Below, piece by piece: positions 24,033 to 49,136 of a stretch of DNA of 64,000 bases; the stretch's first letter is position 1, and each line of letters begins with the position of its first letter. Under the pieces are notes generated by a model that worked only from the letters and a program-made list of their open reading frames with translations, made no database searches and was not told the origin of the DNA. The translations under genes were made by a program, and so were the position numbers. Origin of the DNA: Actinotalea lenta (GTDB taxonomy: Bacteria; Actinomycetota; Actinomycetes; Actinomycetales; Cellulomonadaceae); the NCBI RefSeq assembly GCF_030586465.1, contig NZ_JAUQYP010000001.1, positions 1-64,000 on the forward strand, given 5' to 3'.

Positions 24033-24136
24033 CCGGACATCCAACCCCACGCGCCCGACAGGTCGCGGGCCCCGTCCCGGAGCACGGACCGACAGAACCC
24101 GGGGCCGGTGGGGCCCCGGGTCCGCTCGGGGGCAGG

Positions 24137-24367
24137 TCAGCCGAGGAGGACGCGCTGGTCCGGCACGGCGTTGAGCAGGCTGCGCACCTCGCGCTCGGAG
24201 AAGCGACGGTGGCCGCCCAGCGTCCGCACCGTGGAGATCTTGCCGGCGTTCGCCCAGCGGGTGACCGTCTTCGGGTCCACGCGGAACAGGCTGGCGACCT
24301 CGGCGGGGGTCAGGAGGGAGTCGACGCCCATGGTGGCGGCGGTGCGGTGGCTCGCGTTGTGCTGCAT
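24137..24367 (-). CDS. BldC-like MerR-type HTH regulator
   Basis: A 76-residue protein made almost wholly of a winged MerR-type DNA-binding domain: LLTPAEVASLFRVDPKTVTRWANAGKISTVRTLGGHRRFSEREVRSLL (residues about 18-65). This closely resembles Streptomyces BldC, a small developmental regulator that binds direct repeats cooperatively. The chosen ATG at 24367 gives a short leader peptide MQHNASHR; an ATG at 24331 is also possible. The gene stands alone behind a long leader that carries a c-di-GMP-I-type aptamer, with a CRP-type palindrome further upstream. In this likely non-sporulating organism its targets are unknown. Confidence 0.88.
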   Translation of the reverse strand: MQHNASHRTAATMGVDSLLTPAEVASLFRVDPKTVTRWANAGKISTVRTLGGHRRFSEREVRSLLNAVPDQRVLLG

Positions 24368-24377
24368 GACAGTCCCA

Positions 24378-24452
24378 TCGTCGTTCGGCGGCTGGGCGAC
24401 CCTGGCGGGCCCCTGGCTTTGCGTCCCCGCTTCACAGCGGGTTTGCCCTTGT
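24378..24452 (-). ncRNA. Cyclic di-GMP-I (GEMM) riboswitch upstream of the BldC-like gene
   Basis: On the minus strand the leader reads AAGGGCAAACC, then CCGCT-GTGA-AGCGG (a stem capped by a GNRA tetraloop), then GGGACGCAAAGCC. These are the invariant parts of the first hairpin (P1) of the GEMM-I class, in the right order and spacing. A second GC-rich hairpin (GGGGC...GCCC) and AGCCGCCG follow; this half fits the consensus less clearly. The aptamer ends within about 20 nt of the ATG, so control of translation initiation is plausible. Boundaries are approximate. Confidence 0.75.
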
Positions 24453-24528
24453 CGTGACGAGGAGCTCACCGGGGTGAACCCTCACACCAGACATCGGGAC
24501 CAAAACGGACATCCTTGAGCCCTCTGTG

Positions 24529-24546
24529 GTGTGATGCCCGTCACAC
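24529..24546. promoter_or_regulatory. CRP/GlxR-type palindrome upstream of the BldC-like gene
   Basis: GTGTGATGCCCGTCACAC contains TGTGA-N6-TCACA, the exact consensus form of CRP-family sites. It lies about 80-90 bp upstream of the riboswitch on the side of the BldC-like promoter, where an activator or repressor would be expected. No CRP gene is in the window. Confidence 0.55.
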
Positions 24547-24797
24547 AAACCGCCCAAACCCGGACATCAGCAGACACCACGCCGGGCCCCGACCCGGACG
24601 CCTCCGGACGAAGGTCGCCAACCCGGGCACCGCACCTCAGTCCGGACACCGAGGAGGGCGCCCGTCACGCCTCCCCGCCCGCCGGCCGACCGCGCCCGGA
24701 CGAGCAGAAGGCCCCCGCCCGTCGATCCGGGGGAGGCCTCTGCCACAGACATCGGCGCGGCGGGCGCCGAACTTGAGGTGAAGAACTGTGCTCTGCG
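24547..24797. other. Intergenic stretch with no recognised feature
   Basis: This remainder of the 430-nt gap between folD and the BldC-like gene shows no convincing gene. It holds folD's downstream flank; GC-rich sequence with the complementary GCCCCCGCC/GGGGGAGGC segments near 24710-24735 may end folD transcription, but this is weak. Confidence 0.35.
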
Positions 24798-26983: not shown

Positions 26984-27055
26984 GGCGGCTCCTCGGCTCG
27001 GCGTGCTGCGCGGAGATCCCGGTCCGGCCCGGGCGCGCACCACCGGTGGCTGACC

Positions 27056-27148
27056 CAGGGCCCAGGCGTTCGACCCACGATCCTGCTCGGCGCGAGACGC
27101 CCCGATGTGCCGCTCCCTGGTGGTTGGCCCACCTACGCCAGTCGCGGC
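27056..27148 (-). ncRNA. ZTP (pfl-type) riboswitch upstream of glyA-folD
   Basis: The minus-strand leader contains GCGACTGGCG (27145-27136), GGTGGGCC, AACCACCAGGGAGCGGC, and after a variable hairpin CGCCTGGGC (27068-27060). These are the conserved segments of the ZTP class in order, including the 3' CCGCCTGGGCA-like strand. A TAGGCT -10 box (27160-27155) begins transcription just before the aptamer. GC-rich sequence between the aptamer and the ribosome site (CCACCGGTGG, GGGCCGGACC) could form the expression platform. ZTP builds up when 10-formyl-tetrahydrofolate is low, and glyA and folD restore it. Confidence 0.9.
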
Positions 27149-27186
27149 GGGGTCAGCCTAGCAACGGGCGGCCCGGCGGGCACTGC

Positions 27187-48869: not shown

Positions 48870-48904
48870 CGGTGCTCCGGGTCGGGTCGCTGGACGGGGA
48901 CCCG

Positions 48905-48985
48905 GTGCACCCAGGCGGTCGGTGCGCCGTGATGATCGCTCGGCCGTTCCCTGGTGGTCGGTTCCACCCTCGCCAGTCGCGGCCG
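48905..48985 (-). ncRNA. ZTP (pfl-type) riboswitch upstream of purH
   Basis: The minus strand reads GCGACTGGCG (48980-48971), AGGGTGGAACC, GACCACCAGGGAACGG, a short variable hairpin, then CCGCCTGGGTG (48918-48908). All conserved ZTP segments are present in order, with the same opening motif as the glyA element. TAGACT at 48997-48992 is the -10 box, so transcription starts about at the aptamer's 5' edge. Only about 35 nt separate the aptamer from the ATG, so the switch probably acts on translation. Confidence 0.92.
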
Positions 48986-49136
48986 GAACCGAGTCTAGCG
49001 GCCTGCCGGGAGAGCCGGGCCGCGGCAGCCCACGCGGCGTGCGAGCGGCCACGCGCGCAGCGCCGCACGGGCGTCCAGGATCCGGACGCGGGCCGACTGC
49101 CTCGGCCCGCGTCGCCGCGTGGGCCGCCGGCCGGGC

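Follow-up and report, generated by a model that had tools for sequence, protein, structure and literature searches.

Which signals reach the small BldC-family gene in the 64,000-nt stretch of Actinotalea lenta DNA analyzed in this study (the window), and through which parts of its leader do they act? In Streptomyces, the development network receives the c-di-GMP signal by way of the proteins BldD (PMC4151990) and RsiG-WhiG (PMC8325347), as described in the accessible parts of these two sources. The elements at the window locus follow each other on the minus strand in the order palindrome, CTCAAG, 17-nt spacer, CGAT, hairpin (24459-24483), aptamer and 76-codon gene, and an earlier note on this DNA had read the aptamer and the palindrome as a c-di-GMP input at the level of RNA with a possible cAMP input at the level of DNA. 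At the sequence level both parts of this reading are upheld, the first through two Rfam models, covariation and the contact bases G20, A47 and C92, and the second through a CRP-type box found again, at a constant position, in leaders of the genus.

The BldC-Family Gene

24137..24367, minus strand: bldC-family gene "bldC2", 76 amino acids, ATG start, stop included (NF033787, reading frame, PDB 6ama/6amk)

The 76-residue gene that had been called BldC-like was found to encode a BldC-family protein, as evidenced by a score of 99.4 bits against NF033787 (curated cut-off 77) and by matches of the product to the BldC crystal structures PDB 6ama (E 1.3e-26) and 6amk. Along with Glu16 and Arg22, the product shares with Streptomyces BldC the DNA-contact residues Lys26, Thr27, Thr29, Arg30, Trp31, His46, Arg47 and Arg48, the contacts being those named for the BldC crystal structure in the accessible part of PMC5859096, whereas Lys33 is replaced by Asn in the 6ama alignment. 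It also differs from Streptomyces BldC in being riboswitch-linked and in that most genomes with such a gene hold a further BldC gene. Rather than belonging to the Streptomyces-development setting in which it had been placed, the gene is a further BldC gene in Cellulomonadaceae, relatives of which are not known to sporulate. An ATG at the equivalent place closes most leaders of the genus.

Identity of the Riboswitch Aptamer

24383..24456, minus strand: c-di-GMP-I riboswitch aptamer (Rfam matches, covariation, contact bases)
24426..24441, minus strand: first aptamer hairpin (structural P2), with a GUGA tetraloop (model structure line; 6 of 6 pairs changed on both sides)
24390..24418, minus strand: second aptamer hairpin (structural P3), with two non-standard basal pairs (model structure line, family alignment, genus leaders)
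24420..24420, minus strand: putative equivalent of Vc2 A47, A here and G in the RF03167 consensus (contact named in the accessible part of PMC4744006)

A scan of the whole window with Rfam gave three matches at cut-off, which are this aptamer and two ZMP/ZTP riboswitches (27053-27155 and 48902-48990 (-)), the first of these two just upstream of a glyA-like gene. The aptamer was matched by c-di-GMP-I-GGC (RF03167; 24383-24456, minus strand) with 59.0 bits and E 2.2e-11, a score that reaches the cut-off of 59 bits exactly. With c-di-GMP-I (RF01051), the covariance model that the earlier note had named as a check, the same positions gave a significant 57.9 bits against a cut-off of 35 (E 1.3e-10) in a scan of the whole genome. 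The GEMM-I elements described for the leader are found where they had been placed, as the aptamer contains GGGCAAACC, a hairpin capped by GUGA, and GGACGCAAAGCC, with GGACGCGAAgCc standing in the RF03167 consensus where the window has GGACGCAAAGCC.

With RF03167 as the top Rfam score (59.0 vs 57.9 bits), this RNA could be a genuine c-di-GMP-I-GGC variant with a different cyclic dinucleotide as its ligand, and the two do share their overall sequence. The ligand contacts of the c-di-GMP-I aptamer are G20, A47 and C92 according to the accessible part of PMC4744006, and A47-A49 are located in J2-3 according to that of PMC3764141. When the numbering of these partly accessible sources is mapped onto the window aptamer, all three contacts and the G21-C46 pair are present. 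The base that differs from the GGC consensus would correspond to Vc2 A47, as it follows the G21-C46 pair in the model structure line, and "GGC" would, from a reading of the RF03167 model, name positions 20, 47 and 92. The G of the consensus at position 47 was not seen, A being present in the window and in 53 of the 53 riboswitches read from Cellulomonadaceae, among which C92 is kept in 53 and G20 in 50. Since the A47, C92 and G20 contacts are as in c-di-GMP-I, the window RNA is judged to be an ordinary c-di-GMP-I aptamer despite its GGC-labelled best score, with c-di-GMP as the expected ligand. The RF03167 model scores A47 aptamers of Cellulomonadaceae over its cut-off, so that its label alone is no proof of a variant ligand. 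With A at the differing position in all family riboswitches read and a window score exactly at the cut-off, a variant with another ligand is very improbable, and the diverged subclass that had been considered earlier gives way to an ordinary c-di-GMP-I RNA, with no sign in the contact bases of a ligand-divergent subclass.

This ordinary c-di-GMP-I aptamer has the same fold, conserved sequence, contact bases (G20, A47 and C92) and position directly before a coding sequence as Vc1 and Vc2 of Vibrio cholerae (c-di-GMP-I, GEMM-I, RF01051). It differs from them in two non-standard P3 pairs, a 5' hairpin before the aptamer and a BldC-family target.

Structure and Covariation of the Aptamer

Covariation was assessed in a MAFFT alignment of the 53 Cellulomonadaceae riboswitches, using the model structure and 500 shuffles. 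The model structure pairs 96.1% of cells in this 53-row alignment, and both-side changes are present in 11 of 20 pairs (49 cells), with 6 of 6 pairs in the first hairpin and 5 of 10 in the second. None of the 500 shuffles reached any of the five pairing/covariation measures, and pairing falls to 23-46% when the partner is slid by 1-3 columns. Alignment of the leader across related genomes, which had been put forward as a further check, thereby finds both hairpins to covary within the family. The loose fit of the second hairpin to the consensus had also been seen correctly, in that two pairs at the base of P3 are non-standard in the window. In the family, 21 of the 53 riboswitches depart from standard pairing at one of these two positions and 13 at the other, and the window form of the P3 base is seen again in other leaders of its genus, so that the departure is lineage variation.

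Distribution Within Cellulomonadaceae

Matches to RF03167 were present in at least 19 of the 61 sampled family genomes, a lower bound set by strict filters, and a BldC-family gene over the cut-off in all 61. Of the 54 family riboswitch matches, 53 were read for context; 20 of these 53 are immediately followed by bldC, a pairing present in 18 of the 19 riboswitch-bearing genomes, and 17 of those 18 genomes also have one or more other BldC-family genes above the cut-off. The genome of the window has five riboswitches, two of them before bldC genes (C1:24383 and C2:384070). A pattern search found the aptamer absent within 330 nt of 15 further family BldC genes and of a weak relative (L295), and one bldC locus (L296) ends at a contig edge with the tail of the aptamer visible. 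No synteny was seen with the two same-genus loci compared (L122 and L130, about 3 kb each), neither of which contains the window neighbours xth and folD. Another riboswitch of the same genus (L135) precedes a gene that is EAL-like by eye.

A BldC tree was built from 72 distinct domain sequences, 26 of them riboswitch-linked, over 54 columns only. The riboswitch-linked genes required 2 label changes on this tree vs 21.5 in shuffles, shared a weakly supported group with three riboswitch-free genes (L280, L289 and L291), and had a single origin in 20% of bootstrap trees. Judged from these domain sequences, riboswitch-linked BldC genes group apart from other BldC genes, though not quite cleanly.

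All 19 riboswitch-bearing genomes have GGDEF matches, ranging from 1 to 47 (27 in the genome of the window), compared with 21 of the 42 riboswitch-free family genomes that have any, with at most 8. Flagellin was found in 15 of the 19 riboswitch-bearing genomes vs 12 of the 42 others; flagella were considered as the trait that tracks the riboswitch and set aside, as the GGDEF count separates the genomes better.

Short proteins of 46-66 amino acids with (V/I/L/A)PxQ near the C-terminus follow 18 of the 33 family riboswitches that do not precede bldC, as the first ORF after the aptamer (L098, L086, L110, L123, L116, L109, L113, L103 and others), and one is present in the genome of the window itself (riboswitch C1:572102). 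Many have RWAA or AWA before the tail, and the BldC remnant of L130 is counted among the 18. NCBIfam gave no match for two of these proteins tested, and their homology to BldC was found to be unsupported (hhalign probability 9%).

Distribution Outside the Family

In a sample of the phylum, RF01051 matches were present in 144 of 396 genomes, and bldC followed the riboswitch at none of 70 loci, of which 30 were chosen automatically and 40 picked from the listed matches, some ending at contig ends. In a sample of the order, 29 of 297 genomes had matches; BldC is present at 4 of the 29 loci read, each of them within Cellulomonadaceae, and the link to bldC was absent from the 20 loci outside the family. 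A wider spread of the link was rejected on 0 of 89 loci outside the family (70 plus 20, one being common to both). Approached from the side of the gene, 20 named bldC loci were scanned with Rfam. Four of them carry the aptamer (L011, L013, L018 and L042; from Cellulomonas, Actinotalea and a single Micrococcales record), and it was not found at any of the four Streptomyces loci (L019, L024, L056 and L085).

The CRP-Type Palindrome

24530..24545, no strand assigned: CRP-type palindrome TGTGA-N6-TCACA (genome, family and leader scans)

The TGTGA-N6-TCACA palindrome reported further upstream was located at 24530-24545 as TGTGATGCCCGTCACA, with 0 mismatches. Within the window alone, the palindrome at up to one mismatch had 2 matches, which is not above chance (19 of 100 shuffles had as many), and its significance therefore rests on the genome and family scans. 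The perfect form is present at 6 places in the 3.3 Mb genome vs 0 for the reversed pattern, and two of these six boxes sit upstream of RNAs among the genome's five c-di-GMP-I RNAs, at centre-to-aptamer distances of 81 and 119 nt. At the 53 family loci, 9 perfect boxes were found in the 15,900 positions up to 300 nt upstream of the aptamer, against none in the remaining 143,809, while boxes with one mismatch numbered 8 upstream of aptamers vs 6 at other positions. A leader pattern, consisting of the CRP box, 75-105 nt and then GGCAAACC, was searched in 221 family genomes with the reversed pattern as control, giving 13 places in 12 genomes and 0 for the control; 12 of the 13 belong to the genus of the window, in 11 of its 19 genomes. 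The genome also encodes a CRP-like protein, for which NCBIfam ranks the CRP equivalog first (E 4.8e-31), although at 107.9 of 266 bits it stays below the cut-off, and has three matches to the class III cyclase domain. By the genome and family scans the CRP-type box is above chance and conserved in position, and Crp is predicted to bind it.

A second combination of a CRP box and a c-di-GMP-I riboswitch is present in the genome of the window (G000:C1:1338005-1338207), before a product that by eye starts like a signal peptide. In at least 8 of 19 genomes, perfect CRP boxes lie between two divergent flagellin-domain genes (G050:C22:256564, G008:C1:39460, G033:C4:2008, G020:C2:263819, G057:C3:30211, G055:C1:285781, G038:C1:676760 and G016:C1:3758778), which suggests CRP control of flagellar genes; among the matches listed, none lies between flagellin genes in the window's own genome.

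Promoter Layout and Candidate BldC Operator

24514..24519, minus strand: CTCAAG, -35-like element (conserved spacing in genus leaders)
24493..24496, minus strand: CGAT, -10-like core motif (spaced 17 nt from the -35-like element in 11 of 12 leaders)
24484..24484, minus strand: guessed transcription start, approximate (from the position of the CCGAT element)
24492..24511, minus strand: TGTCCGTTTTGGTCCCGATG, candidate BldC site in the promoter spacer

Twelve leaders from 11 of the 19 genomes of the genus were selected by the CRP-plus-aptamer pattern, and the layout between these two elements is free of that selection. The -35-like element lies at a distance of 18 from the CRP centre (17 in one leader) and CGAT at 17 from the -35-like element (16 in one leader), whereas the distance from CGAT to the aptamer varies between 49 and 65. 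The -35-like element itself reads CTCAAG in 9 leaders, GTCAAG in 2 and GTAAAG in 1. CTCAAG-N17-CCGAT, the spacing of which is fixed in 11 of the 12 leaders, has a partial likeness to the flagellar/WhiG consensus, given in the accessible part of PMC8325347 as TAAA for the -35 and GCCGATAA for the -10. A flagellar-type site is found within 160 nt in 3 of 53 leaders (expected 0.49), and no sigma-70-type promoter was found in 24050-24700. A similar promoter-like site lies ~100 nt upstream of flagellin in the genome of the window. The 95-kb flagellar region has 10 flagellar-type sites on both strands, vs ~11 by the background rate (17 in 293,554 nt for a similar pattern), so that the site upstream of flagellin gives no support to a flagellar promoter type. 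A motif search of the same region did not find FliA/WhiG. The flagellar-type resemblance of the promoter is weak, and a sigma factor of this type may be the one that reads it. Two CTCA-N-GCCGAT matches in the genome (G000:C1:593338 and 604081 (-)) stand directly after the GGCAAACC aptamer octamer, with the rest of the aptamer absent.

The candidate BldC site in the spacer matches the optimised operator, TGTCCGAATTGTCCGAATTG in the accessible part of PMC5859096, at 12 of 20 bases, a score that is not rare, since no fewer than 24 other sites in the window reach it. Proteins of the BldC family bind AT-rich direct repeats as multimers arranged head to tail, and for this mode of binding the leaders offer candidate sites. 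The spacer contains TGTCCG in 11 of the 12 genus leaders, and TGYCC is present at -45 to -10 in 17 of 20 bldC leaders vs 1 of 33 other leaders. Two loci, L130 and L134, match the optimised operator at 15 of 20 bases, unequalled in the rest of those loci. BldC sites are described as not predictable from sequence in the accessible part of PMC6428758, and autoregulation by BldC from this candidate site is offered as a suggestion.

The same leader is also present in two genomes of the genus (L301 and L307) before a 61-amino-acid protein that keeps only parts of BldC, with no recognised BldC domain, and in a third genome a second copy (L310) has an eroded BldC domain (49.6 bits, cut-off 77). Such degenerate products could mean that the aptamer is a decaying relic and that CRP control is what matters. 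At these three loci, however, the aptamer motif, the CRP box and the promoter spacing are kept while the protein changes, and the aptamer helices covary in the family, which makes a relic hardly credible. An aptamer acting together with the CRP box remains the preferred reading.

Expression Platform and Direction of the Switch

24459..24483, minus strand: 5' hairpin GAGG...CCUC between promoter and aptamer (z -2.05)
24456..24459, minus strand: CGUC, 5' strand of a putative outer P1 helix (pairing with GACG at 24379-24382, which lies two bases upstream of the SD-like stretch)
24373..24376, minus strand: GGGA, the sole SD-like stretch seen, weak, 5 nt before the ATG (from sequence)

The aptamer ends 14-20 nt before the start codon in 20 of 20 bldC leaders (15 nt in the window), and no terminator-like site was found between aptamer and gene, the one such site in the region lying upstream (24551-24566). 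This short spacing and the absence of a terminator in between point to translational control. Most other bldC leaders have AGGAG at the SD place. All 12 genus leaders are predicted to form a 5' hairpin, GAGG/CCUC or GAGUC/GACUC, each with negative z and with a mean of -2.1; the fold of the whole leader showed no extra stability against shuffles (z 0.26).

A P1 3' strand that abuts the SD is taken as the layout of an OFF switch. The window has this layout, and the duplex of its extended P1 (-11.6 kcal/mol) runs on into the SD-like stretch; both observations speak against an ON switch, in which c-di-GMP would free the RBS and the BldC-like regulator would be made at high c-di-GMP and act as a brake, in the manner of c-di-GMP/BldD in Streptomyces. 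An ON switch would nevertheless suit the Streptomyces BldC of PMC6428758, which according to the accessible part of that source acts as a brake on development and as an activator of cdgE, a diguanylate cyclase gene, and the SD-hiding pairing is unproved. In the 12 genus leaders, P1-side/SD pairing was -9.3 vs -10.0 for swapped partners, with 895 of 1000 swaps as low, whereas 36 of 300 shuffles were as low for the 20 bldC leaders, which is unclear, and 2 of 300 for all 52 leaders, which is slightly better. Hiding of the SD by an extended P1 was accordingly set aside as unsupported in the genus by the swap test and weak elsewhere. On balance an OFF switch is favoured as the somewhat likelier direction, and an ON switch is a possible but doubtful one.

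Model and Significance

The locus as a whole is best read as a two-level signal integrator, with transcription controlled via CRP and translation via c-di-GMP, probably as an OFF switch, to which a probability of about 0.65 is given. Two cell-wide signals, c-di-GMP and cAMP, would probably meet on one switch gene. Direct support at the level of sequence comes from the aptamer (its sequence and covariation), the CRP box, the fixed promoter layout and the family-wide link to a BldC cluster, and the putative parts (ligand, translational mechanism, direction, sigma factor and autoregulation) would fit together as follows. Transcription of the bldC-family gene would start at a somewhat flagellar/WhiG-like promoter with the CRP box at a fixed distance, and the leader RNA would fold a c-di-GMP-I aptamer ending 15 nt before the start codon, from which position c-di-GMP is proposed to control translation. 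Binding of c-di-GMP would lock the closing helix P1, the 3' strand of which abuts the RBS, and translation would fall; without ligand, the 5' hairpin GAGG/CCUC would form and the RBS would be free. The regulator would then be produced at low c-di-GMP with active cAMP-Crp, and may bind its own promoter.

A Vibrio c-di-GMP-I riboswitch precedes tfoY, a transcription factor gene. As at the window locus, a regulator gene is thus placed under a riboswitch, but the regulator family, the phylum and the promoter differ. The BldD (PMC4151990) and RsiG-WhiG (PMC8325347) circuits, as far as the accessible parts of these sources describe them, likewise have c-di-GMP acting on a Bld/Whi-type network, whereas at the window locus it would act via RNA and not via a protein receptor. 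The riboswitch class is known, and no report of its wiring to a CRP box and a BldC-family gene was found in the literature searched, in which few subscription papers were covered.

A broader and speculative proposal is that the BldC-family gene is a core c-di-GMP output at the RNA level in Cellulomonadaceae, where a flagellar-type sigma factor, cAMP-Crp, BldC autoregulation and the riboswitch would converge on the motile/sessile switch of unicellular actinobacteria, with the same riboswitch class also driving the unnamed ~50-residue proteins with the (V/I/L/A)PxQ tail. The findings point to a regulon of c-di-GMP riboswitches in actinobacteria, the main target of which is clear (18 of the 19 riboswitch-bearing genomes sampled). 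A BldC-family gene appears to be reached by RNA and a CRP box in relatives that mostly have flagellin genes (15 of the 19 riboswitch-bearing genomes), and the role of BldC-family regulators outside Streptomyces becomes testable.
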